Shown here: piece after piece, positions 1,780-17,712 of the stretch
Position numbering within the stretch: position 1 is the first letter of the stretch
Layout: each line of letters begins with the position of its first letter
Origin: Phycisphaerae bacterium
GTDB lineage: Bacteria > Planctomycetota > Phycisphaerae > Phycisphaerales > UBA1924
Assembly (NCBI GenBank): GCA_030432905.1
Contig: JAUILU010000003.1
Span: 62,001 to 126,000 of the forward strand
Length of the DNA: 64,000 nt
Reading direction: 5' to 3'
Notes under the pieces: generated by a model
Seen by the model: only the letters and a program-made list of their open reading frames with translations
What the model was told of the DNA's origin: nothing
The model's database searches: none
Position numbers and translations under genes: made by a program

Positions 1780-4287
1780 CTATTTGATATACGGCGGAGC
1801 AGTAATGTCACCGACGATAGTTCCATCCCGAAGCGTGTACACGGCGCTAAATGGTGCCAGGAATCCTGAATAGTCAGAGATGTTGTTGTAGTTTGAACTC
1901 CGCCGTTCACCCAGAATACCCCATACAATGCACTGGTTTTCGGATTCAAGAGCATTCAGCAACTTGTCTCGGCGAACAACCAGTGAAAAGTTGCTTGCGT
2001 TACCAGAAACCCTGATCGCCCGGGCGATTACTTCACCCGATACATCAGCGAATTGGTATCCATCGCCAATCCAACGCAATCCAAGCATATCGCACAAATG
2101 TGGGCCCGGGTACACCGCTCCATTCGCGTCTTCGGATGAGCAAGCACTACGGATATGCTTCGCTCTGGTCCGTGGATGAATACCATGAGGATTAATCCAC
2201 TCGTCTTCTGATTCACAGTAGCTGCGTAGATGGCAAAATACATCACCCCATGGGTACTCGCCGGTCCACCCATTGCCTATATCAATCCCGAAACAGCCGT
2301 GACCCCAGAAGTCTATAGAATCCAACGCAGCTAAAAATGCCGACGATTCCGCTTTGCTGACAAGCCAACTTCGAGCGTGAATCCACATCGAGGCTGTATC
2401 TGCACGGCCTTGCCTAAGACGTGTCCGAATCGATTCTTCCCACTTCCAGTGGCCATCCAGCACAAACCAATCATTGTGATCAAGATCAGTTGCGGTCAGC
2501 AACTTTGAAGGATCTTCAAGCTCAGACTTGGCCCATTGCTCCCGTTCATCGAATCGATCTATATCGTTGAACGGTGAGTCGTATGGCTGAGTCGTGGTCC
2601 AGAATCTCTTGTCTGTAATGTTCAAATCCTCTTCATCCTTCGGCGGTAACGCGCCAGATTCAGACAGATCAAAGTTGCGAGCGTATAATTGCCACGGCCC
2701 TTGATATTGCAGCGGAATGCCATACTCGTGTCTCTCGGTCATATGGTGCCGATCAGAGATGTATCCGACTAACTCGTGTAGCGCGATCCACTGGTACTTT
2801 TTACCTATGCGTTCCACTTTGCTTTCTCGGTAACTAAACCTGTGAGAATCTGGCACTCGTCTGTCATGTTCCATGAACATTTTGGGAGTCCAGCCAAGCT
2901 TCTTAACCCGATCCAGCACCCAGCGTCTAGCTCGATCAGCATCATAATGCTGAATGTAACTACGATTTGGCGCCTGTGCCCCTAATCTAGTGCTATGGAA
3001 TTTCGAGGTCTTACTCTGCATTGTGTACCGGCCAAAGTCACCGTACCAGCCCGTACCAGCCTGCTTTGTATTCGGCCTGATGGAATCAGTAATGTCGCGC
3101 CACGCTGGGTCTTTCGAGAGCGCGCCGAGCCTGTCTTCGGAGGGTACACGCCGCTCTCGAGATCGGTATGTCGGATTGAATGTATCTGCCTTAACGTTAT
3201 CGGGAAGCACGCCACGGTGCTCTGCGTACGCAAGTACAGTGCGTGCGTAGTCCCGGAGCAACACGTGCAGCCTGACGTTGTCTGTATCGAAGACATGCTT
3301 GTACACAGCTGCTGCCAGTACCCGGAGCCCGTCATCTGATCGCTCCCGCATCGCGACACCAGCTGCCACAGCATACAAGCGTTCCACCACGTACGGGTCG
3401 TCTACATCGTCAAACTGCTCAATAAGCTCCGTAACAACATGTGGCCGATCAGTCAGCAGTCGAATCGCAGCATGTCCAGCACTGTCTCGGAATCGGCAAA
3501 CTGTGCTTGAGCCAAACCACAGCAATACAGACCCAACGAGACGTGCCTGGTCGTTCGACACTAAATCGAGCGGCACGCGCATAGCCCAATCCACGATCAT
3601 CAAAGGCATTAAGGCCGAGTCATTGGTCATGTACGAGACCGGAACAGTCCACGCTCTGTCACGCCGCGGTAGCTTCATCAAACTAAGCTTGCTATGGAGA
3701 AAGTCGGCATTGAGTGGGTGCCCTGGTATCGTTGAGATTTTCAGTAAGGAGTTGAGAATCTCTTCAGGTGTCCCATTGACTGCTGCTGCTTTTAAGAAAC
3801 GATGAGTAGCACCGGTGATTGTGTCCCCATCGCGCCACGGCAGCGAATCTATGAAATCCTTCAGCAATTGGGGACGTCGGCTATTCTCTGGATCTAGTAA
3901 TTCCAGCAATTCGACCTCGAACCTCCCAGGAACCAACATCGCAAGCGAGGCGGCGACGCCCCTTCTCTCCCAATAGTTGCCGTTATTGAGCCAGTCCAGC
4001 TTCCCGCCGGGAGCAATTAGAGTCTTCAGCTCATCCAGTGACTTTGCTTGCTTTAACAGCGAATCCGCAATGAAGTAGTCACTGAATCGTTCGAAGCCAA
4101 AGCGTACCTTCTTCTGAGGATTGTCCGTCCACCAGTCATCGATCAATTCAACCAGCAAACCCTCGGACATCAACCTTCGGAACAATGATGACGACCATTC
4201 CTTGCTTGGAGAGTATCTATTGACTGCTTGCTTCGCATCCTCGAATGAAACTGCACTGCCATTCGCTTCACGGACAAGATCCGCCAC
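1780..4287 (-). CDS. Avs/STAND-like NTPase, C-terminal half (same frame as the N-terminal half)
   Basis: This 835-aa ORF is the continuation of the ORF at 4366-6126: both lie in the same reading frame and are separated only by one TAA and 26 sense codons. Its first part contains a winged-helix-like segment of the kind that follows STAND NTPase cores (VRFGFERFSDYFIADSLL at about residues 62-79); the rest is long and helical, as expected for the repeat-type phage-protein sensor of Avs proteins, and then a C-terminal region I cannot assign. The GTG at 4287 has no convincing ribosome-binding site, so independent translation is doubtful. As it stands the sensor half is probably not made unless the stop is read through or is a sequencing error. 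Confidence 0.75.
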   Translation of the reverse strand: MADLVREANGSAVSFEDAKQAVNRYSPSKEWSSSLFRRLMSEGLLVELIDDWWTDNPQKKVRFGFERFSDYFIADSLLKQAKSLDELKTLIAPGGKLDWLNNGNYWERRGVAASLAMLVPGRFEVELLELLDPENSRRPQLLKDFIDSLPWRDGDTITGATHRFLKAAAVNGTPEEILNSLLKISTIPGHPLNADFLHSKLSLMKLPRRDRAWTVPVSYMTNDSALMPLMIVDWAMRVPLDLVSNDQARLVGSVLLWFGSSTVCRFRDSAGHAAIRLLTDRPHVVTELIEQFDDVDDPYVVERLYAVAAGVAMRERSDDGLRVLAAAVYKHVFDTDNVRLHVLLRDYARTVLAYAEHRGVLPDNVKADTFNPTYRSRERRVPSEDRLGALSKDPAWRDITDSIRPNTKQAGTGWYGDFGRYTMQSKTSKFHSTRLGAQAPNRSYIQHYDADRARRWVLDRVKKLGWTPKMFMEHDRRVPDSHRFSYRESKVERIGKKYQWIALHELVGYISDRHHMTERHEYGIPLQYQGPWQLYARNFDLSESGALPPKDEEDLNITDKRFWTTTQPYDSPFNDIDRFDEREQWAKSELEDPSKLLTATDLDHNDWFVLDGHWKWEESIRTRLRQGRADTASMWIHARSWLVSKAESSAFLAALDSIDFWGHGCFGIDIGNGWTGEYPWGDVFCHLRSYCESEDEWINPHGIHPRTRAKHIRSACSSEDANGAVYPGPHLCDMLGLRWIGDGYQFADVSGEVIARAIRVSGNASNFSLVVRRDKLLNALESENQCIVWGILGERRSSNYNNISDYSGFLAPFSAVYTLRDGTIVGDITAPPYIK

Positions 4288-4365: not shown

Positions 4366-6126
4366 TTACTGCATCACCGTATCGAACGCGATTGGCCCAC
4401 TGGGAAGCTCCTCACCTTCGAACGCCTTGCAGACTATGTCAAGGAACAGTGGATTCTGAAACTCAGAAAGCAGTGGTGGAAATTGCTGTGACTGAATGTT
4501 GTAGTGCTTGAAATATGTGGTAGCGAGTGTCGGCAATACATCGCCAAGACCATTGTGTTCAATCAGACCCCACCCCTCTGGCATACCCACAGCGAATTCA
4601 TCTGGCAGTGTGATTCGTTTGTAGTCGGTTCTGCAAGATACGATTAACTTGATGCACGGATGGTTGTCCAGCTCTTTTGCTACCGGAAGTAGAAATGAAC
4701 TCCACAGCCTGCGGTCCACTGCCTCATTGAGTGCATCGATTACAAGCAACGCAGGTCGCCCAGCAAGTTCGCCTGCAGCATTGAGAGTTGGCAGTAAGCT
4801 GTCATGTCCGTGTGCCCAACCAGTCAACTGCACGATCTGGCTGAGTGGCGGGTCGACGCCCCTAAACCACTCGCCAAGAAGTAGTAGTGCTGGTTGCTTC
4901 TGATTCAAGGCCATGTCAACGCAGTGTGCGAGAAGGTGGCTCTTGCCGTTACCCGCATCTCCTTCAACGAGCATCAGCCTTTTGTCAGCCTTGTTGGACT
5001 TATTCAGGAACGACTGAATACTGATAGTCGACTCATAGAGTTGGCGGACAGAGTAGTCTTCATACTTGGACTTGTCCTTCGCGTCGTCAATGTGACGTTT
5101 CGATCTATTCAGAGCGTCTCTCAAGAGGCTGAGCAGCAAAGCCAACTGCTCGACACGAGTAATTAGACTCTCAATATTGGCGCCTCCGAACGATGGTGCA
5201 TCCAGCACTCGAAATCCTGCCAAGCAGTCTGCAATAGCCCTGATGGGCCACTCAGGGGCCTTCTCGTCATGACCGTCAGGCGCCGCAGGCCGTTCGATTG
5301 TGCTTGGGATGTCATCAAGCTCTTGTTTAGTCCACAAATCACCAGGAAGGCTGTCGAGGTTGTCACGAAACTTGTCAATGGCACTGAGGAAGGTGTCGAT
5401 CACATGTTCCAGTCGATTCTCATATGATGGCCCCCATGTAAAGGTATCTAGTTCATGTGTCGCATCACCCGACACATTTAGCTCTGGTCTGTAACGCTCT
5501 GCGAGTTGGATCTCTGCCTTCTCAAAGTTGTGGATCATCCACGCATGATCAAACGAGGGCGTGCCAAACCAATACTGTCGTATGTAGTTGAATGCTGGTC
5601 TTTGAAGAAGATCCTGCATCTCGAACTGTCCAACATAAGTAAAATCGACATCTGAACCATTGTCCCACGTTTTCCATTTTGCGACGTGCTCGTTCCATCT
5701 ATCTCGCTGTGATTTAGAGGGCTTGCCTTTCGCACCACCCTTTGGCGATTTCGCACCTTTCTTGCCTGTCAGATCAAGTGGTACATAGACATGGTATTTT
5801 TTGAGATCCGGGTGGTTTGTAAGTGCAGCTCGCACCGATTCGTCGATCTGTCTGAATTTGCTAGAGTCTATTTTGTCGGTGAACCACTTGGCCTGAACTG
5901 CTACCTTGCCAATACCCGGGACCTCTGCGTAAGCCTCCACGCCGCCGTCACCGCCGGCTCCTTCAACGCGGTTGACTTGGACGTTTGGATGAGATTCTAG
6001 TATCTGGCATCTGAAGAGTTGGACTGCCATCTCCTCGAAGCCGCCTTGCTTCGTGCCTTTGGAGTCGGGACGAACCGTTTTGAAGTCAATCTCAGCGGTC
6101 GTGGAGTTCTGAATTCCGATGCTCAT
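4366..6126 (-). CDS. Avs/STAND-like anti-phage NTPase with N-terminal nuclease, truncated by an in-frame TAA
   Basis: Residues ~28-100 look like an Mrr/PD-(D/E)XK-type nuclease: EGAGGDGGVEAYAE followed by VAVQAKWF gives the D...QxK active-site pattern. Residues ~380-510 form a STAND P-loop NTPase: Walker A GDAGNGKS (~390-397), Walker B LLVIDALNEA (~460-469) and an arginine-bearing IVSCRTDY strand. A nuclease-STAND-sensor order is that of AVAST (Avs) anti-phage proteins, in which the C-terminal sensor recognises a conserved phage protein and activates the nuclease; Avs4 has an Mrr-type effector. The frame stops at TAA (4368-4366) right after PSGPIAFDTVMQ and resumes in the same frame. The intact gene would be about 1448 codons. 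Base composition is lower in GC than the flanking chromosome, consistent with transfer. Confidence 0.8.
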   Translation of the reverse strand: MSIGIQNSTTAEIDFKTVRPDSKGTKQGGFEEMAVQLFRCQILESHPNVQVNRVEGAGGDGGVEAYAEVPGIGKVAVQAKWFTDKIDSSKFRQIDESVRAALTNHPDLKKYHVYVPLDLTGKKGAKSPKGGAKGKPSKSQRDRWNEHVAKWKTWDNGSDVDFTYVGQFEMQDLLQRPAFNYIRQYWFGTPSFDHAWMIHNFEKAEIQLAERYRPELNVSGDATHELDTFTWGPSYENRLEHVIDTFLSAIDKFRDNLDSLPGDLWTKQELDDIPSTIERPAAPDGHDEKAPEWPIRAIADCLAGFRVLDAPSFGGANIESLITRVEQLALLLSLLRDALNRSKRHIDDAKDKSKYEDYSVRQLYESTISIQSFLNKSNKADKRLMLVEGDAGNGKSHLLAHCVDMALNQKQPALLLLGEWFRGVDPPLSQIVQLTGWAHGHDSLLPTLNAAGELAGRPALLVIDALNEAVDRRLWSSFLLPVAKELDNHPCIKLIVSCRTDYKRITLPDEFAVGMPEGWGLIEHNGLGDVLPTLATTYFKHYNIQSQQFPPLLSEFQNPLFLDIVCKAFEGEELPSGPIAFDTVMQ

Positions 6127-7559: not shown

Positions 7560-8381
7560 ATGTTCCGATCAGCCCCCCTGCTCGCGTTCGCCGTGTGCGC
7601 TGGCACAGCCGCATCTCAGCAAGTCCTGCCAGCGGACTTCGAGAACTCAACCACACTCGACCGGCTGTTTGCGTTCGGTGGTGTGGCCTCGTTTCAAACC
7701 GCTCAATCCGCTCAGCTCGTCTACGAACAGTCTTCGTTACAGCTAGACATCGCGTTTACAGGCGCAAGCTCGCTGAATTTCTCGAATGTCGGGCTTGGCG
7801 TACTCAATACTGGAACATCGGGCTTTCAGGTTCAGCCAGGCGCTGATGTGTTTAGCATCACAGTCTTAGCTCCTCAGCCGCTTCCGGGTGGGCTTGAGCT
7901 CGTGGTCACAATCCGTGATGACGACAACAACGACACCTCGATCGACATCGCCAGTGACGACGATGAATGGATTTCAGCTCCGATCGCTGTCAGCCCTGGT
8001 CTTGAGATCTACAACGTCCCACTCTCAACCTTCACCGATGGCAACCCCGGAGCAGGCAACGATGTGCCAGACTTCGCAACTGGCCCTGTCGGCGGAATGG
8101 TGCTCACATTCCAGACTTCGACCTCACTCCTGCAGGGACGGATCGAGACGCCAGTTACACTGTTCATTGATCATGCGGGCATATTTGTCGGTGATCAATC
8201 AATCCCCGGCGGTACCTGCATCGCCGATGTCAACAACGACGGGATGCTCTCGCCGACTGACTTCTCAGCGTGGATCAACGCGTTCAACAGCGCCTCGCCC
8301 GAATGCGATCAGAACGGTGATGGTGCCTGTACCCCCACCGACTTCACAGCCTGGATAAACAACTACAACACTGGCTGTTAA
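7560..8381 (+). CDS. Secreted protein with C-terminal GC-type dockerin
   Basis: This 273-aa exported protein has a signal peptide (MFRSAPLLAFAVCAGTAASQ), a beta-rich central domain of about 190 residues (VVTIRDDDNNDTSIDIASDD..., resembling a carbohydrate-binding-like sandwich, not assignable with certainty) and a C-terminal tail of two EF-hand-like loops, ADVNNDGMLSPTDFSAWI and DQNGDGACTPTDFTAWI, ending in the terminal GC. That tail is the GC-type dockerin of Phycisphaerae, thought to act in surface retention or sorting. A terminator on each side suggests an independent transcription unit. Confidence 0.8.
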   Translation: MFRSAPLLAFAVCAGTAASQQVLPADFENSTTLDRLFAFGGVASFQTAQSAQLVYEQSSLQLDIAFTGASSLNFSNVGLGVLNTGTSGFQVQPGADVFSITVLAPQPLPGGLELVVTIRDDDNNDTSIDIASDDDEWISAPIAVSPGLEIYNVPLSTFTDGNPGAGNDVPDFATGPVGGMVLTFQTSTSLLQGRIETPVTLFIDHAGIFVGDQSIPGGTCIADVNNDGMLSPTDFSAWINAFNSASPECDQNGDGACTPTDFTAWINNYNTGC

Positions 8382-8485: not shown

Positions 8486-9889
8486 TTACTGGCAGCCTTC
8501 GTTGTAGTTTCGGATCCACGCCGTGAAGTCTGTTGGCGTGAGGTACCGGTCGCGGTTCTGGTCCGCCGAGAAATCACCGGCCTGGTACTCTGTCATCCAT
8601 GCGGCAAAGTCGGTAGGAGTAAGTGCATCATCATCATTCATATCGGCCGGACAAGGCGGCTCTTTGGTGTGCTCAAGCAATGCGCCGTGGACATCAAGCA
8701 CACCGCCGCCCACCTGATCATTTAGGTTCGAGGGGAGATCGACGAAGGGCCTCGCCGATCGCTCCATGTGCCTGGCTACCTTTCTCGGAGAGTGATCCCA
8801 GCCGACCGCGTTGATAAGAGCCGCGGTGCCCGATACCCATGCAGTCGAGAAGCTGGTGCCTTCCCCGATTTGATACGTGCCATCAACGTACGTTCCGATC
8901 GCCTCGACTCCAGGCGCCGCGACCACAACATGGTCACCGACATTCGTAAAGTCTGTAATGCGGTCTTGCCAGTCACTCGCAGCGACCGCAATCGATCTGT
9001 TCTCCTGGAACGCTGACGGGTACTGATCATTCCCGCTGTGCCCGAGGTTCCCAGCAGATGCGGAAACTGTGATCCAATGCCGACGCGCCTCATCGACCGC
9101 GTCGCGAAGCACGAGCACATCTTCGTCGGGAGCAGATGTGCCGAGACTGAGGTTAATGACCTCAACGCGTTTGTCTATTGCAAAGTAGATCGCCTTGGCG
9201 ACTGTAAACGAGGTCGTCCGCCCGTCGCTGTCGAGCGCCACGATCGGCATGATCTTCGCATCGGGCGCGACTAGATGAATCATCCCGGCGATCATTGTCC
9301 CGTGACCGACAAACTCGTCAGGTATGCCGTTGCCGCTTGTGTCCGTGCCTCTAGCAACATCGTCGGTATCAGACGCTTCTGTCACAAAGTTCCAGCCCGG
9401 CACGAGTCTATCGACAAGCTCCGGATGGTCCGCGTCCACGCCTGTGTCGATCACCGCAACGGTCACACCAGAACCGGTCGAGATCGAATGTGCCGCTGGC
9501 AGGTTCAGTGCGCTCGCCGCGGCTTGTCCACGGTAGTCATTGGTCGAGCGACCACCGTAGAAACTCCGGGTATCCCCGCCCGGATCGGTCGCAGAGAAAT
9601 TGAGTTCGAAGTGGTCGAGCTCCAAATCACCCATCGTCAATAGCTCGAACTCGTCACGAGTCATGCCCATCGGCAGGGAGAGGAGGTAGATGTTCCTGCT
9701 GGCAATGGCGTCTAGCGTAGACGTGCCGTAGCGGTCGTTAAAGTCGTCAACGCTCGCCCCGACAACAAGCTCCGCAATGATCTGTCCCGAGATCGGTTCG
9801 TCGTCCGGGTCAGCATGCACAATGCCCGTCGCAGCGACTAGGGCGGCGGCTGTCAAGATACTACGGGAACGTCGCTTACGAGTGTTCAT
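8486..9889 (-). CDS. Subtilisin-like serine protease (S8) with diverged GC-type dockerin
   Basis: The catalytic triad is intact: Asp in VAVIDTGVDADHPEL, His in GHGTMIAGMI, Ser in GTSFSTAWVSGTAAL. A signal peptide (RSILTAAALVAATGIVHAD) directs export. The tail has two EF-hand-like loops (ADMNDDDALTPTDFAAWM and DQNRDRYLTPTDFTAWI) but ends NEGCQ rather than GC and lacks one of the usual cysteines. I chose the ATG at 9889: it overlaps the stop of the CHAT gene (ATGA) and has AGGA 8 nt upstream, whereas the track start at 9922 lies inside that gene. The coupling makes it the fourth gene of the ECF sigma / CHAT operon, so an exported protease is co-expressed with a cytoplasmic one. Confidence 0.88.
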   Translation of the reverse strand: MNTRKRRSRSILTAAALVAATGIVHADPDDEPISGQIIAELVVGASVDDFNDRYGTSTLDAIASRNIYLLSLPMGMTRDEFELLTMGDLELDHFELNFSATDPGGDTRSFYGGRSTNDYRGQAAASALNLPAAHSISTGSGVTVAVIDTGVDADHPELVDRLVPGWNFVTEASDTDDVARGTDTSGNGIPDEFVGHGTMIAGMIHLVAPDAKIMPIVALDSDGRTTSFTVAKAIYFAIDKRVEVINLSLGTSAPDEDVLVLRDAVDEARRHWITVSASAGNLGHSGNDQYPSAFQENRSIAVAASDWQDRITDFTNVGDHVVVAAPGVEAIGTYVDGTYQIGEGTSFSTAWVSGTAALINAVGWDHSPRKVARHMERSARPFVDLPSNLNDQVGGGVLDVHGALLEHTKEPPCPADMNDDDALTPTDFAAWMTEYQAGDFSADQNRDRYLTPTDFTAWIRNYNEGCQ

Positions 9890-12639
9890 GTCCATGATCC
9901 TACCGCAAAGAGTCCGCCCCACAAAGCAGGATGTTGCCCTTCGGCAGACGACTTGGCAAGTAGCTTTGCCAGCCCCTCTACAGGGTCCAGAAACTCCGAT
10001 TTGTTATCAGAGTACAAGGTCGTAAATGTGTCCTTCGCATACGAGTCAGAGAGACGCCATGTGCTCGCGATGACACTGCGCGCGCCCGCCAGGAGCATTG
10101 CCCGGATGAGACCAAAGTTTTCGCCCGAGTAGTCGCCGTCGACGTAGCCCGTTTCGCACCCTCCCAGGACCACCGCCACACCAAGCAAAGGCAGCTCAGC
10201 CACACGTCGCGCCGAGCACCAACCATCACCGAGTAGCAACCGTGACCCCATCGGATCCTGTGGCGCATACTCCGCATGGCAGGCAAGGTGAACAACGTTC
10301 ACGCTCGCAGCTTCCTCAGCAAGCGACTCCAGAGTGACGCTTTCTGCGTACAAACTCCGGCAGTTTGCATTTTTAGCAATAGCATCGATCTCGTCAGCGA
10401 TGTAAGGCGCCCGCTCGTCGGGCACGCCGGCGACAAGCAGGCCGTCTCGCCGATCCGAAACCAGATCTGACGTCTGCCTCGCCCACGTCAAGCTCGGAGC
10501 CAGAACGGGTGTGCAGCGTTCTACCAGCGCAACGCCCCCGACACGAACTGCCGATACTGGCAGGTTCGCAAGCGCACGGGGCAGCACGAAAACGATGCGC
10601 TTAGATTCTTCGATCGTGCTTTGAACGCCGCCGAGTAAACCGTCCCCCAGAAAATCGAGAGCTGCCTCTATCCGGGCATTGAGGCTTTCGGACACTTCGC
10701 GACCGATCGCAAGCCGGACCTGCGCCCGATCGATGTCATTCAACAACGATCGGCACTTCGAGACGGCGGCTTCGTATCCAATACTGCACGAAGTCAAGTG
10801 TACTTGGTCGTATTGTACGACGATGCAATGCAGTTCCTGCCCAACGACCTCGATTGTTATCGCCGCGCAATCTGGCGGAACGGCATCGAGCAGCTCGTCA
10901 TATGCAAACCGGAATTCGTGGTTGGCAACGCCCCGGCCACTATCAACAGTTGCCTCTTTGCTTGCGATTGCCGACTGGAGATCATGCAACCTGAGTCGCA
11001 TCTTATTGATCGCAGAGTCGCCCACGCCATCACTCTGCGCAGCCTCGATCATGTCGAGTGTCGCTACGACATCGCATTCAAGTTGTAAGATCTCCTCGTT
11101 ACTCACACCAGGACTCACGCCGAGCGATTCGATAAGCGACCTTGCGTTTCGGCGTTCAGATGCTTCAAGCGCGAGCACCGGGTCATCGGTCTTGATCGCC
11201 AGCCTCAACGCCTCGTCATACACACCTGATTGCCCACCAACACACGCGGCACGGAGGCGGTCACCTGAGAACATCCCTCTTGTTGTTTCAACACATGCGA
11301 ACGCCTCGCTGATCGATTCTCGTGCCTGCTCGTAACGCTCCGCGTGGCGGTGGATGCCGGCCCGTGCTGAAAACAGCTCAGCGTCGAGATTGGCAAGCCC
11401 GAGTTCATCGACGAGTTGTTGTGCGTCGTCTACCACACCTGACGCTTCGTTCGTTTGGCCCAGAGCCACCAGAGCCCGGCCCTTATCAAGCAGAATCCGT
11501 GCCTTGGCTGGTGCGTGGGGTGAAAGCGTGAGAGCGTATTCGAGCGCTTCGATCGCGTCTGCGTGAATGCCTGCAGATAGGAGCAGGCCGCCCCGGAGTG
11601 CTTCTGATCGGGCAGCGCTGTTATGGAGCTTGTGTTCCAGACATGTATCACGTGCGCTTGAAAGCTCGGTGAGTGCGGCTCCGAGATCGCCGTTGCGACC
11701 GAGCCCTACGCCATAAGCCATGCGTGCCCGCACCAACTCGGCCTGCATTCCAGCATCGGTGAGTGTGTCGATCGCGGCGGGGAGCCTCTGCAAGGCCTCG
11801 CGCACATCGCCAATCGCGAGAAAGAGCTCAGCCGCCTCCGCTTCAAGTCTTGCCGACTCCACAGCATCATTTGATTCGCGGAATCTTGAGCTCGCACTCA
11901 GGAACAGGCCAAGGGCTTCGTGCAATCTGCCGCGCCTGCTGGCAAGGTCTGCAAGGTTGCCCTCAACGATCGCGGATCCGAAGGTCTGGCCGCAAGACTC
12001 GAAGCCCTGAAGAGCTTGCTCAAAGGAGGCCTTTGCCTGTTCAAATTGGCCAACGTCGAGAAATGCCTCGGCGCGGTTGCTCGCGAGCTGCGCCGCCAGG
12101 CTCTCGTTGATCCCGGGCACACGGATCGCCGCGTCGAATCGCTCGAGTGCTTCACTTGGCCTGTCGAGCATCCGCAGAACTACACCGGCGAGCATGATCG
12201 CGGTCGCTGATCGGTTGTTGTCGCCCAGACGATCGAATGTTTCCCCGGCCCGCAGCGCGAGTTGCAGAGCCTCGTCCCGCAGGCCCAGCACGTTGTGCGA
12301 CTGAACCGATGTCAGGCACGCCTCTGCAATCGCATGATCGTCACCCGAGGCCTCGGCAGCGGTGACTGCGAGCTCCGACATCGCAAGAGCCTGCTTCATC
12401 TTGCCCGAATACGACAGAGCGTGGCACATTGCCGAGTGAGCTCGCGCGGAAAGCCGCCGATCGCCAACCTCGGGTGCCAGCTCGATGAGTCGGGTCCCCA
12501 TCGCGAGGCCCTGCTCAGGATCCTCAAGCGTCGCGGCCCGGCATTCGTCGATCCAGCACTCGAACAGTGAATCGGGAGATACGGAACCGCGCAGCAGATC
12601 GAGTTGCTCAGCTTTCTGGAGCAGCATTGAATCGCACAT
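9886..12639 (-). CDS. TPR-CHAT caspase-like protease
   Basis: The N-terminal ~550 residues are helical TPR-type repeats (for example ASFEQALQGFESCGQTFGSA). The C-terminal ~300 residues are a CHAT domain, a clan-CD caspase-like peptidase: catalytic His in VVHLACHAEY and catalytic Cys in VVLGGCETGY, both present. No export signal, so it acts in the cytoplasm. The track start is a TTG at 12669 that overlaps the previous gene; an ATG at 12639 (MCDSMLLQ) seems more likely, without a strong ribosome site. It lies between a putative anti-sigma gene and a subtilase gene. TPR-CHAT next to a sigma factor recalls type III-E CRISPR Craspase, where TPR-CHAT cleaves Csx30, but no CRISPR or Cas gene is in this window. 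Confidence 0.88.
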   Translation of the reverse strand: MCDSMLLQKAEQLDLLRGSVSPDSLFECWIDECRAATLEDPEQGLAMGTRLIELAPEVGDRRLSARAHSAMCHALSYSGKMKQALAMSELAVTAAEASGDDHAIAEACLTSVQSHNVLGLRDEALQLALRAGETFDRLGDNNRSATAIMLAGVVLRMLDRPSEALERFDAAIRVPGINESLAAQLASNRAEAFLDVGQFEQAKASFEQALQGFESCGQTFGSAIVEGNLADLASRRGRLHEALGLFLSASSRFRESNDAVESARLEAEAAELFLAIGDVREALQRLPAAIDTLTDAGMQAELVRARMAYGVGLGRNGDLGAALTELSSARDTCLEHKLHNSAARSEALRGGLLLSAGIHADAIEALEYALTLSPHAPAKARILLDKGRALVALGQTNEASGVVDDAQQLVDELGLANLDAELFSARAGIHRHAERYEQARESISEAFACVETTRGMFSGDRLRAACVGGQSGVYDEALRLAIKTDDPVLALEASERRNARSLIESLGVSPGVSNEEILQLECDVVATLDMIEAAQSDGVGDSAINKMRLRLHDLQSAIASKEATVDSGRGVANHEFRFAYDELLDAVPPDCAAITIEVVGQELHCIVVQYDQVHLTSCSIGYEAAVSKCRSLLNDIDRAQVRLAIGREVSESLNARIEAALDFLGDGLLGGVQSTIEESKRIVFVLPRALANLPVSAVRVGGVALVERCTPVLAPSLTWARQTSDLVSDRRDGLLVAGVPDERAPYIADEIDAIAKNANCRSLYAESVTLESLAEEAASVNVVHLACHAEYAPQDPMGSRLLLGDGWCSARRVAELPLLGVAVVLGGCETGYVDGDYSGENFGLIRAMLLAGARSVIASTWRLSDSYAKDTFTTLYSDNKSEFLDPVEGLAKLLAKSSAEGQHPALWGGLFAVGSWT

Positions 12640-12655
12640 CCGAACTGAACCGGGA

Positions 12656-13228
12656 CTAGGCAATATCAAACGGCTCCGAGCTAAACGTGCGATCCTTGAG
12701 CCTGATCTCGAGCTTGGCGCGCATGGGCTTCACCGTGGTGAACCAGCCGTCGTCATCGCGGCCAAGAACAATCTCGGCGCCATCGCCGACAAGTACGACT
12801 TCGGCTTCATCGACACCGTCAACCATCACGCTCACCGCACAGCCGGCGGGCACGAACTCGACAAAGAAGTCGACGCTGATGTGATCTGATTCGAGCATGA
12901 GCTGCCGACGCGCGGTCCCAGCGGACCGGAGACCCGCGACGGGCTTCAGGCTGTCGAACACCAGACTGAGCAGCGACACCGCAGGCGATGACTCGCTCGC
13001 GTCGAGCTCTTGCTGCATGATCTGGTAGGCTCGGTGCAGCGACTGACCAGGCGCATCCTCAGAATCGTCTGTTGAGGCGCTCACGATTAGAGCGGTAAAG
13101 CGGTCACGGAACATACGCAAAGAATCATTCGAATCGCATAGCTCGTTCAGCCGGCCAACCTGGCCTTCATCGAGCTCACCCGCGGCTTCTAGGGCAATCA
13201 GTTCGAAGTACTCATTCTCGGTAGACAT
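12656..13228 (-). CDS. Putative cytoplasmic anti-sigma-like regulator
   Basis: This is a 190-aa protein. Residues ~6-50 (YFELIALEAAGELDEGQVGRLNELC) resemble the acidic N-terminal helix bundle of anti-sigma factors, but I see no zinc-finger HxxxCxxC and no membrane segment. Residues ~105-190 form a beta-rich domain (HISVDFFVEFVPAGCAVSVM...). The ATG has AGAGG about 7 nt upstream. It sits between an ECF sigma gene and a TPR-CHAT protease gene. By analogy with Csx30 in the Craspase system it could hold the sigma factor and be the CHAT substrate; that is inference, and it could also be a simple structural or sensing protein. Confidence 0.55.
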   Translation of the reverse strand: MSTENEYFELIALEAAGELDEGQVGRLNELCDSNDSLRMFRDRFTALIVSASTDDSEDAPGQSLHRAYQIMQQELDASESSPAVSLLSLVFDSLKPVAGLRSAGTARRQLMLESDHISVDFFVEFVPAGCAVSVMVDGVDEAEVVLVGDGAEIVLGRDDDGWFTTVKPMRAKLEIRLKDRTFSSEPFDIA

Positions 13229-13317
13229 GGGTGACCTCTGTTATGTGGCACTGCAGGCTCAGGAGCACTCTCAACAGCCCTCAGATACAGCCAAGCGTGA
13301 AAATCTCCAAACCGGGC

Positions 13318-13851
13318 TTACTCTCCAGACCCGACTCGCAGAATCCGGGCCAGCTTCTCAAGGCATCTCTGACGCGTGGGTCCGATACTCCCGCGCGGGA
13401 TCCCAAGCTCCATTGAGATCTGGTCGTACCCGGAGGCCACGGGCCGGCAGTGGATCGCGATCAGGAGTTCTTTGCAGCGCCCCCCTAGTTCATCAAGCCC
13501 CTGGTGGAGTTCGCTCAGACGCTCCTGCCGATCCATCTCGGCATCTGCGAGTGCCTCTGGTACCGGTTCGGGCAACCTCAGCTTGTTTTTCTTTACGTGT
13601 TTGGCGCACGCCCTGACCGCGGTCGTGATGAGCCACTTCGGGACAGATTGTGCGTCCCGCAGAGAATAAAGGCTCCGGTAGGCGGCGAGGAAGACCTCCT
13701 GGAAGATGTCGTCGCAGGCAGACGCGTCGAAACCGTTGCGTTTCGGGATGGAGTACACGAGCCTGGAGTGCAGATCAACGAACTCGCGCCAAGCGGACTC
13801 ATCGCCCTCGATACAGCTGCTGACGATCTGTGAGAGGGGCCGACTGGGCAT
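13318..13851 (-). CDS. ECF-family RNA polymerase sigma factor
   Basis: This is a 177-aa sigma-70 of the extracytoplasmic-function type. Region 2 (CDDIFQEVFLAAYRSLYSLR and PKWLITTAVRACAKH) binds the -10 element and core polymerase; region 4 (GGRCKELLIAIHCRPVASGY then YDQISMELGIPRGSIGPTRQ) is the -35-binding HTH. Length is usual for the family. It is the first gene of a minus-strand operon: sigma, putative anti-sigma, TPR-CHAT, subtilase. Two inverted repeats lie upstream in the divergent intergenic region. Its regulon cannot be known from this window, though it may include its own operon. Confidence 0.9.
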   Translation of the reverse strand: MPSRPLSQIVSSCIEGDESAWREFVDLHSRLVYSIPKRNGFDASACDDIFQEVFLAAYRSLYSLRDAQSVPKWLITTAVRACAKHVKKNKLRLPEPVPEALADAEMDRQERLSELHQGLDELGGRCKELLIAIHCRPVASGYDQISMELGIPRGSIGPTRQRCLEKLARILRVGSGE

Positions 13852-13878: not shown

Positions 13879-13940
13879 TGTCAGTTTACATGACCTTCTG
13901 ACACTTTTTTACCTGAACCGGGTATCTGGCACAAACCCGG
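13879..13940. promoter_or_regulatory. Two inverted repeats in the ECF sigma / glycosyltransferase divergent promoter region
   Basis: TGTCAG (13879-13884) and CTGACA (13898-13903) form a perfect 6-bp inverted repeat, and CCGGGT (13918-13923) and ACCCGG (13935-13940) form a second one. The space between the divergent starts is only about 100 bp, so these could be operators controlling either direction, or structures in the sigma mRNA leader. No canonical -35/-10 pair stands out. Confidence 0.35.
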
Positions 13941-13955
13941 CGTCCTCTTATTGAT

Positions 13956-15834: not shown

Positions 15835-17712
15835 ATGAAAGGCTTAGTTATGAAAAAGGAAGTGGCACTCATAATTGCATCTGGAACGATCTCGGCCTCA
15901 GCACAAGAGGCTGTCACGGTAACGACGCTTTACGATGTGTCAGATTCGCCGCTGGCGACGGTACTGCCGCAGGACCTGCCCGGACCGGATGGTGTGGTCT
16001 CGTTCCGCGAAGCGGTCGCGGCGACGAACAACGCTGCCGGACCACAAACGGTGACATTCGCGATTCCGGAGTCTGAGTGGTGGCTTCTTGATGATGTAGC
16101 CCTGCTTGAGCTTGTCGACGGGCCGTTCCTCATCACGGACGACCACACCACGCTCGACTTCTCATCCCAGACAGACTTCACCGGCGACACCAATCCCAAC
16201 GGCGGCGAAGTCGGGATCTACGGCCTGCAGGTCAACGGCTGGGGACACCCGGCGATCTTTATCTACGCCAGTCACACGACTGTCAAAGGCCTCGGGCCGG
16301 TCTACCAACGCCGGCTCTCGGTGACCGTTCAGGACGGCAACTTCAACCGCTTCATTGGCAACACCACCGACGGGATCGAACTCGACCCGTACCCCGGCAC
16401 GACCATGGGCAACATCATCGGAGGCACCGAAGAAGGCGAGGGCAACTCGCTCGGTTCCGTCGAGATCCTCTGCGGCGCCAACGACAACATTGTCGTTGGC
16501 AACACAATCCGCGAGGTCAACGTCGTGGGCAGCCGGTACTGCGAAGAAGGAAACGAGTACCCGACGAACAACCGCATCGGCGGGCCAACTCCCGAGGAGC
16601 GCAACGTCATCAACGGGTTCGGCAGGAGGAGCGGCGAAGGCTTCCCGTCGGGCGAGGGCGTGCTGGTGACCTACGCAAAGGACACGCTCGTCGAAGGCAA
16701 CTACATCGGCGTGACAGCGGACGGGATGAGCAGGGTCAATCAGATCGGAACTTCTGGCGTGCGTGTCTACGACGCGTTCGACACCATGATCCGCGGCAAC
16801 CTCATCTCAGGGATCAGAGCACTTGGGTCCAACCACTCAGCAGGGCAGATCTTCGGACAAGCGATTGCGGTCGGATCGATCAACGCTGACACGTATCGTA
16901 CGACCATCCAGGGCAACCTCATCGGTACCGACGCGACGGGTCAGAACCCTATTCAGACCCGCAGCGGCATCGTCGTTGCCCCTTCGACCGGACTCTACAC
17001 CGTCCACGACACGGTCATCGGCGGCACAAACGAGGGCGAAGCGAACACCATCGCCTACACCGAGGTGCGAGGCGTGACAGTCTCGGCACTTGTGGACACG
17101 GCAACGATTCTCGGTAACAGCATATTCGGCAACGTCGGGCTTGGGATCGATCTTTACAAGATCGGGCTGGGTGAAAGCGGTGTCACGCCGAACGACCCGG
17201 GCGATGCAGACTCAGGCGGCAACGGGCTTCAGAACTACCCCGAGATCAACAGCGTTGTGGCGTCGGGTTCGACGATGACCGTGTCGGGCACCTTCAACAG
17301 CATGCCGAATCAAGACTATCGGCTTGAGTTCTTCGCAAGCACGGAGTGCGATCAGAGCGGCTTCGGTGAGGGCGAATGGTTTGTCGGTGCGATCGAGGTA
17401 ACGACAGACACCAACGGTGATGCACCATTTGACGCAGTCGTCGATATGGCCCCGAATGGGATGGGGTTTGTCACCGCGACCGCCACTGATCTGGCTGCAA
17501 ACGCGACCAGTGAGTTCTCAGCGTGCTTTGGCATGGCTACGACCACTTGCGTCGTAGACGTCAACGGTGACGGCCAACTTACGCCCACCGACTTTACCGC
17601 TTGGATCACAGCATTCAACAACAAAGATTCGCGTTGCGACCAGAACGACGACGGCAACTGCACGCCGACGGACTTCAATGCGTGGATTAACAATTACAAT
17701 GACGGCTGCTGA
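15835..17712 (+). CDS. Secreted parallel beta-helix protein with GC-type dockerin
   Basis: This 625-aa exported protein has a short signal region (KKEVALIIASGTISASAQ), then a CSLREA-like entry motif (DGVVSFREAVAATNNAAGPQ) that typically precedes right-handed beta-helices. The middle consists of NxI/V-rich coils (NIVVGNTIREVNVVG, TTIQGNLIGTDATGQN). A short beta domain follows, then the two-loop GC-dockerin tail (VDVNGDGQLTPTDFTAWI, DQNDDGNCTPTDFNAWI). Beta-helix proteins of this type are often surface polysaccharide-binding or -modifying; no catalytic motif is recognisable. AGGGAT lies just before the ATG at 15835. The next gene follows directly, so the two are probably co-transcribed. Confidence 0.78.
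   Translation: MKGLVMKKEVALIIASGTISASAQEAVTVTTLYDVSDSPLATVLPQDLPGPDGVVSFREAVAATNNAAGPQTVTFAIPESEWWLLDDVALLELVDGPFLITDDHTTLDFSSQTDFTGDTNPNGGEVGIYGLQVNGWGHPAIFIYASHTTVKGLGPVYQRRLSVTVQDGNFNRFIGNTTDGIELDPYPGTTMGNIIGGTEEGEGNSLGSVEILCGANDNIVVGNTIREVNVVGSRYCEEGNEYPTNNRIGGPTPEERNVINGFGRRSGEGFPSGEGVLVTYAKDTLVEGNYIGVTADGMSRVNQIGTSGVRVYDAFDTMIRGNLISGIRALGSNHSAGQIFGQAIAVGSINADTYRTTIQGNLIGTDATGQNPIQTRSGIVVAPSTGLYTVHDTVIGGTNEGEANTIAYTEVRGVTVSALVDTATILGNSIFGNVGLGIDLYKIGLGESGVTPNDPGDADSGGNGLQNYPEINSVVASGSTMTVSGTFNSMPNQDYRLEFFASTECDQSGFGEGEWFVGAIEVTTDTNGDAPFDAVVDMAPNGMGFVTATATDLAANATSEFSACFGMATTTCVVDVNGDGQLTPTDFTAWITAFNNKDSRCDQNDDGNCTPTDFNAWINNYNDGC

Follow-up and report, generated by a model that had tools for sequence, protein, structure and literature searches.

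The window, that is, the whole 64,000-nucleotide stretch of DNA analysed here, contains at positions 8486-13851 four genes on the minus strand: an ECF sigma factor is followed by a 190-aa protein, a TPR-CHAT protease, and a subtilase that looks exported (Table 1). The positions of the open reading frames bear out the gene order given in the first-pass annotation. The second ATG of the subtilase gene overlaps the stop codon of the CHAT gene by 4 bp (ATGGACATGA), as had also been claimed, and an overlap of 4 bp is common between the gene of the middle protein and the CHAT gene.

Table 1. Features of the four-gene operon, its upstream region, and the zinc motif of related proteins
Feature	Position in the window	Strand	Basis
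Candidate promoter for autoregulation, AAGAGG-N17-GATAC, 5' of the sigma factor gene	13922..13949	minus	motif enrichment, suggestive only
ECF sigma factor, 177 aa, sigma2 and sigma4	13318..13851	minus	TIGR02937, 61.6 bits (cut-off 42.9)
190-aa soluble protein: ASD-like helices (1-80) and CarboxypepD_reg-like beta-sandwich (83-190)	12656..13228	minus	homology, AF2 model
Arg101 codon of the 190-aa protein; candidate P1 or docking residue for the CHAT protease	12926..12928	minus	conservation and model
TPR-CHAT cysteine protease, 913 aa from ATG 12627 (927 aa from TTG 12669)	9886..12627	minus	Pfam CHAT, 97.8 bits
Catalytic His, H784 (from ATG 12627), HLACHA	10276..10278	minus	24/24 in CHAT alignment A5
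Catalytic Cys, C824, LGGCETG	10156..10158	minus	24/24 in CHAT alignment A5
Asp861, SLWxxxD, proposed S1-pocket acid	10045..10047	minus	24/24 in CHAT alignment A5
S8 subtilase, exported-looking, with C-terminal GC-type dockerin	8486..9895 (ATG 9895 or 9889)	minus	Peptidase_S8, 135 bits
Zinc motif sequences in related proteins: HLDDGCPHC (L142), HVESGCAPC (L138), HVEGGCMTC (L144), HVGAGCDVC (L140), HVEQPCERC (L151)			

The TPR-CHAT protein is composed of a TPR superhelix (approximately residues 1-500), in which four TPR_12 stretches are recognized, and a C-terminal caspase-like fold. The pTM of its AlphaFold2 (AF2) model was 0.81. In a Foldseek search with the CHAT model, the best match was Csx29 (8eey; 1.4e-15), followed by human separase and then by DdvA (8rw5 and 8rot). 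The catalytic His and Cys, which had been described as intact, are both in place and are retained in all full-length members aligned. The CHAT fold together with this His-Cys dyad identifies the protein as a CHAT cysteine protease (clan CD). It is known that an Asp of separase, D2070, forms a hydrogen bond with the substrate arginine (PMC12609080). Judged by its sequence motif, Asp861 might be equivalent to this residue; the aligned Craspase sequences have Ser at this position. The best-conserved stretch of the TPR region is IVEGNLAD, and its conservation suggests that what binds to this region may be a constant protein and not a variable ligand.

The 190-aa protein by itself gave no match in Pfam, NCBIfam or PADLOC. 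It has no hydrophobic stretch of the length of a membrane helix, and no transmembrane segment was found. The AlphaFold2 model, built with 24 homologues, showed a mean pLDDT of 87.5 and consists of four helices (residues 2-15, 21-33, 35-52, and 61-80) followed by the beta sandwich; a Foldseek search with the whole chain gave nothing significant, with no match below 0.1. The nature of the N-terminal helices became apparent from relatives. With the profile built from the order (Phycisphaerales), homologues in other planctomycete classes were detected with E-values down to 1.8e-18. Seven of them (L128, L137, L138, L140, L142, L144, and L151) carry the zinc motif H-x3-C-x2-C (HxxxCxxC), the ligands of which are missing from the window's own protein and were lost in its order. 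Eleven N-termini, comprising these seven zinc-bearing relatives and four from the order, were scanned against known families: the anti-sigma family NF052375 of NCBIfam matched five (best 2.7e-10), ChrR four (1.7e-4), RsrA two (7e-4), and zf-HC2 of Pfam four (9e-4). A PDB profile search with the N-terminal domain gave weak matches to DdvA (8rlz), RslA (3hug), and ChrR. The middle protein is thus an anti-sigma factor by transitive homology via its zinc-bearing relatives, in agreement with the anti-sigma-like N-terminus noted in the first-pass annotation. As for the C-terminal domain, CarboxypepD_reg was matched weakly in 8 of 17 members (best 9e-4), with zf-HC2 matched weakly in 4 of the 17, and NOMO2 was the PDB match for the beta domain. 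Mutual information with APC between the sigma factor and the middle protein did not show enrichment of the anti-sigma domain in 75 pairs, a sample of low power.

Arg101 is the most conserved residue of the middle-protein family. It is found in 83 of 84 non-redundant divergent proteins, including the actinobacterial ones and those that consist of the beta domain only, and it is the sole invariant column of the 24-row alignment. The model places Arg101 in the loop of residues 93-106 between strands 1 and 2, where the confidence is lower (pLDDT of about 76). This residue is regarded as a candidate site of cleavage by, or docking to, the CHAT protease. Since it is also kept in beta-only proteins without an anti-sigma domain, where a cut would take off only a short N-terminus, a docking or structural role is possible as well. 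It should be added that the cut sites of Craspases follow Met, Leu or Ala and are not conserved (PMC11106740); in other words, an invariant site is not demanded by the analogy with Craspase.

In sigma4, the window's sigma factor carries GSIGPTRxRCL, a motif common to its family, and 57 of 91 members have it in its strict form. The profile of the module sigma factors gave 131.9 bits with the sigma factor of a Nonomuraea locus (L158), and 18-43 bits with most other ECF sigma factors near the loci. A motif related to that of the candidate promoter was present in 13 of 66 upstream regions of the sigma factor gene versus 0.43 expected, a 30-fold enrichment of a motif derived from the same regions. 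Only two AAGAGG-N17-GATAC sites occur in the window's genome, and the motif was absent when it was searched for in loci of other classes. Because it was derived from the same set and is missing in the other classes, no case for a regulon was built on it; its position upstream of the sigma factor gene hints at autoregulation.

The subtilase also matched TIGR03921 (165.8 bits, under the cut-off of that model) and, at its C-terminus, the dockerin model NF041540 (35.7 bits; cut-off 29). The start of the protein resembles a signal peptide, and such a stretch was detected by a crude test in 40 of about 53 members of the order. Dockerin-like repeats, of the PTDFTAWI type and others, end exported proteins across the order; in the window they are found at 7560-8381, 8486-9895, and 15835-17712, and they form the C-termini of most subtilases in L032-L093. 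Another neighbour, 2.4 kb from the module, is a split Avs2 homologue on the minus strand. Its two adjacent open reading frames (1780-4287 and 4366-6126) match the C-terminal (1.4e-183) and N-terminal (7.2e-109) parts, respectively, of this antiviral STAND protein, as if a stop or a frameshift had split or interrupted a single gene. In genome G002, the Avs2 homologue does not adjoin the module.

Conservation of the neighbourhood in relatives had been named in the first-pass annotation as a check of the proposal. When the 190-aa protein was used as the query in 61 genomes, only two congeners, with 75% and 35% identity, were found outside the window's own genome. Among 301 genomes of the order, 54 yielded the full-length type when the TPR-CHAT profile was used. 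The open reading frames of the loci were then scored with profiles built in this analysis, and 61 loci with complete upstream sequence were counted. In all 61, a sigma factor gene of the same orientation lies approximately 650 bp upstream, and the middle protein is encoded between the sigma factor and the CHAT protease in 60; in the exception, L066, an over-extended CHAT open reading frame may conceal it. The subtilase follows the CHAT gene in about 56 of 60 loci. By automatic count, the subtilase gene has the same orientation in 51 loci and the reverse orientation in one (L070). Of the eight loci flagged as lacking a subtilase, L042, L067, L095, and L096 do have one, whereas L007, L037, L058, and L075 do not. 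The subtilase is thus a usual part of the unit but a dispensable one, because none lies beside the module in these four loci. Weak matches to the middle protein in L004 and L005 were rejected, as they sit in unrelated open reading frames. The named records of the module loci are MAGs of Phycisphaerales or other Planctomycetota.

CHAT proteins of other types from this order or from the phylum (L031, L034-L036, L145, L150, and L152-L157) serve as a fair control: neither a sigma factor nor a middle protein was found at these loci. Since the same order is repeated in at least 60 loci and CHAT genes of other types lack the sigma factor and the middle protein, the arrangement is far beyond chance. 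The module is real and is widely conserved.

Outside the order, three arrangements were observed. In arrangement A (L128, L137-L142, L144, L146, and L149), the sigma factor is followed by a protein with anti-sigma and beta domains and by the CHAT protease, and the subtilase lies after the CHAT gene or before the sigma factor gene. In arrangement B (L124, L130, L133, L136, and L147), a soluble histidine kinase is followed by a stand-alone beta protein and the CHAT protease; HATPase_c was matched in the four kinases scanned with E-values down to 1.6e-27. The kinase gene is located directly 5' of the genes for the beta protein and the TPR-CHAT protein at L124:3343-4860, L130:3025-4640, and L136:3689-4971. 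Arrangement C consists of the CHAT protease, one or more subtilases, and one or two short beta proteins; a kinase-like open reading frame comes next in L126, L129, L131, and L135, and none is in view in L123 and L134. At least two subtilases stand in tandem downstream of the TPR-CHAT gene in L127 and L132. These arrangements mean that the beta-domain protein is a regular companion of the TPR-CHAT protease, while the output module varies between a sigma factor and a soluble histidine kinase.

A tblastn search with the CHAT protein of another class led to the locus of Nonomuraea (L158; Actinomycetota), which encodes an S8 protease, a sigma factor, a 147-aa protein X, and a TPR-CHAT protein in this order. 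X matched the beta profile built without it only weakly (13.7 bits), and the approximately 48 residues ahead of its beta domain are too few for a full anti-sigma domain. In contrast to the planctomycete subtilases, that of this locus (L158:2214-3269) lacks an evident signal peptide and may therefore act in the cytoplasm. Matches in Streptomyces and Azospirillum were rejected, since they lack the sigma factor and the middle protein, and a tblastn search of plasmids with the window's CHAT protein and one middle protein found nothing.

From the gene order, its conservation, the anti-sigma homology, the catalytic residues, and the modelled loop around Arg101, we infer a cytoplasmic protease-to-transcription switch, with its sigma binding, cleavage, cleavage site, signal, and output as follows. 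The 190-aa protein would hold the ECF sigma factor inactive through its N-terminal anti-sigma domain, and its C-terminal beta domain would be recognized by the TPR-CHAT protease. A signal in the cytoplasm would probably be read by the TPR superhelix; the anti-sigma factor is soluble, which argues for such a signal rather than for envelope sensing of the RseA type. The CHAT protease would then cut the anti-sigma factor; the bond that follows Arg101, the near-invariant residue of the predicted loop, is the likeliest site. This cut would separate the anti-sigma part from the beta sandwich and free the sigma factor. The freed sigma factor would raise its own operon and with it the exported subtilase, which would be an output. 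A mechanism of this kind had been suggested in the first-pass annotation. It is plausible; its anti-sigma part has been strengthened, and its cleavage part stands as a proposal. Phage or envelope damage had been offered as the trigger, and nothing was found that points to either. We put the probability of the cytoplasmic switch, in which the CHAT protease cuts the anti-sigma factor and frees the sigma factor, at roughly 0.55.

The beta domain accompanies TPR-CHAT in operons without a sigma factor, those of arrangement B and those in which CHAT, S8, and beta proteins follow one another, so that it seems to be a partner of the CHAT protease whatever the output. This would also fit a middle protein that is never cut and serves as a scaffold or inhibitor: its beta domain would block the CHAT protease, as securin does for separase, its anti-sigma domain would hold the sigma factor, and a ligand would free both simultaneously, with the CHAT protease acting on other targets. 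The closeness of the CHAT model to separase structures in Foldseek and the presence of Arg101 in the beta-only proteins agree with this. The nearest studied analogue, Csx29/Csx30, however, is a pair of protease and substrate, and we consider the uncleaved scaffold unlikely. A different role for proteolysis follows from the ECF54 group. According to the passage on this group in a 2022 review (PMC8999054), which reports the gene context from Casas-Pastor 2021, ECF54 sigma factors adjoin genes with carboxypeptidase, subtilase, and CHAT domains, and the review proposes that their control is proteolytic with no anti-sigma factor present. The proteases would then degrade the sigma factor itself and keep the system off, and the middle protein would be an accessory protein with a carboxypeptidase domain. 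The short N-terminus of the actinobacterial middle protein is in line with this proposal. The middle protein of Planctomycetota, however, carries an anti-sigma domain but no peptidase domain, and the subtilase looks exported and therefore should not reach a cytoplasmic sigma factor. Degradation of the sigma factor is accordingly rated as quite improbable.

Some circumstances recall defence. CHAT proteases and DdvS/DdvA are tied to it in other bacteria (PMC12288465), the split Avs2 homologue is close by, and the distribution of the module is patchy. The CHAT protease and the subtilase might then be effectors of anti-phage activity or abortive infection, with the sigma factor serving only to raise their expression. 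Against this, none of the four proteins gave a meaningful PADLOC match, the neighbourhood with Avs2 does not recur in G002, and signalling modules are usually patchy too. A defence role for the module has no direct support, and this explanation is considered very unlikely.

Beyond the cytoplasmic switch itself, the exchange of partners allows a wider and decidedly tentative proposal. TPR-CHAT and its beta partner may form a portable proteolytic core, which is plugged into an ECF sigma factor or a soluble histidine kinase, often together with an exported subtilase. The CHAT protease would act at or through the near-invariant Arg in the manner of separase, and Csx29, Csx30, and CASP-sigma of type III-E would be a relative captured by CRISPR. 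The switch proposed above would, if true, provide a CRISPR-free, phylum-wide setting for the principle that a caspase-like protease cuts an anti-sigma factor and frees a sigma factor, for which type III-E loci, themselves rare, have so far been the source. ECF54-type loci could then no longer be regarded as being without an anti-sigma factor. The exchange of sigma factor and histidine kinase suggests a general core of protease signalling and a place to seek the origin of Csx29/Csx30, and a single point mutant of the near-invariant Arg would probe the mechanism.

In type III-E systems, Csx29 cuts the sigma inhibitor Csx30 upon an RNA-guided trigger, in a set formed by Csx29, Csx30, and CASP-sigma (PMC10028731). 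The module is alike in that a TPR-CHAT protease, a sigma inhibitor, and an ECF-type sigma factor occur together, and in that Csx29 is the best structural match. The Csx29 model NF041237, however, gave only 33.5 bits with the window's CHAT protein, below its cut-off of 300. The middle protein is not recognizable as Csx30, it has a near-invariant Arg where the type III-E cut site is not conserved, and the exported subtilase is extra. The absence of CRISPR components stated in the first-pass annotation is supported: Cas1 was not found in the genome, and no Cas gene was present among the neighbours read.

DdvS, the partner sigma factor of DdvA, controls a CBASS-CRISPR island in Myxococcus xanthus (PMC12288465). 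Like the module, DdvS/DdvA (PDB 8rot, 8rw5, and 8rlz) combine an ECF sigma factor with an anti-sigma domain of the zinc type that is connected to a CHAT fold. DdvA, however, is a single transmembrane chain of anti-sigma and CHAT parts, whereas in the module these are encoded by separate genes as soluble proteins. Separase has in common with the window's protease the CHAT-type caspase fold, the alpha-helical superhelix, and, if Asp861 is equivalent to D2070, the Asp that holds the P1 Arg of the substrate; it differs in being a eukaryotic cohesin protease with about 12% identity.

The ECF54 group is alike in gene context, since CHAT, subtilase, and carboxypeptidase-type genes lie beside an ECF sigma factor there too, and the arrangement is therefore not wholly new. 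The claim that the module is an undescribed stand-alone analogue is weakened, because this context had been published, as the same passage of the review shows. The likeness is one of gene context. In that passage ECF54 is described without an anti-sigma factor, whereas the middle protein of the module has an anti-sigma domain in Planctomycetota; the module further differs in that its subtilase looks exported and its hosts are Planctomycetota. The presence of an anti-sigma domain in the carboxypeptidase-like protein means that the predicted mechanism differs from the published one. Three features look new: the anti-sigma domain in the "carboxypeptidase" protein, the constant core of beta-domain protein and TPR-CHAT protease, and the soluble histidine kinase that takes the place of the sigma factor in another lineage.
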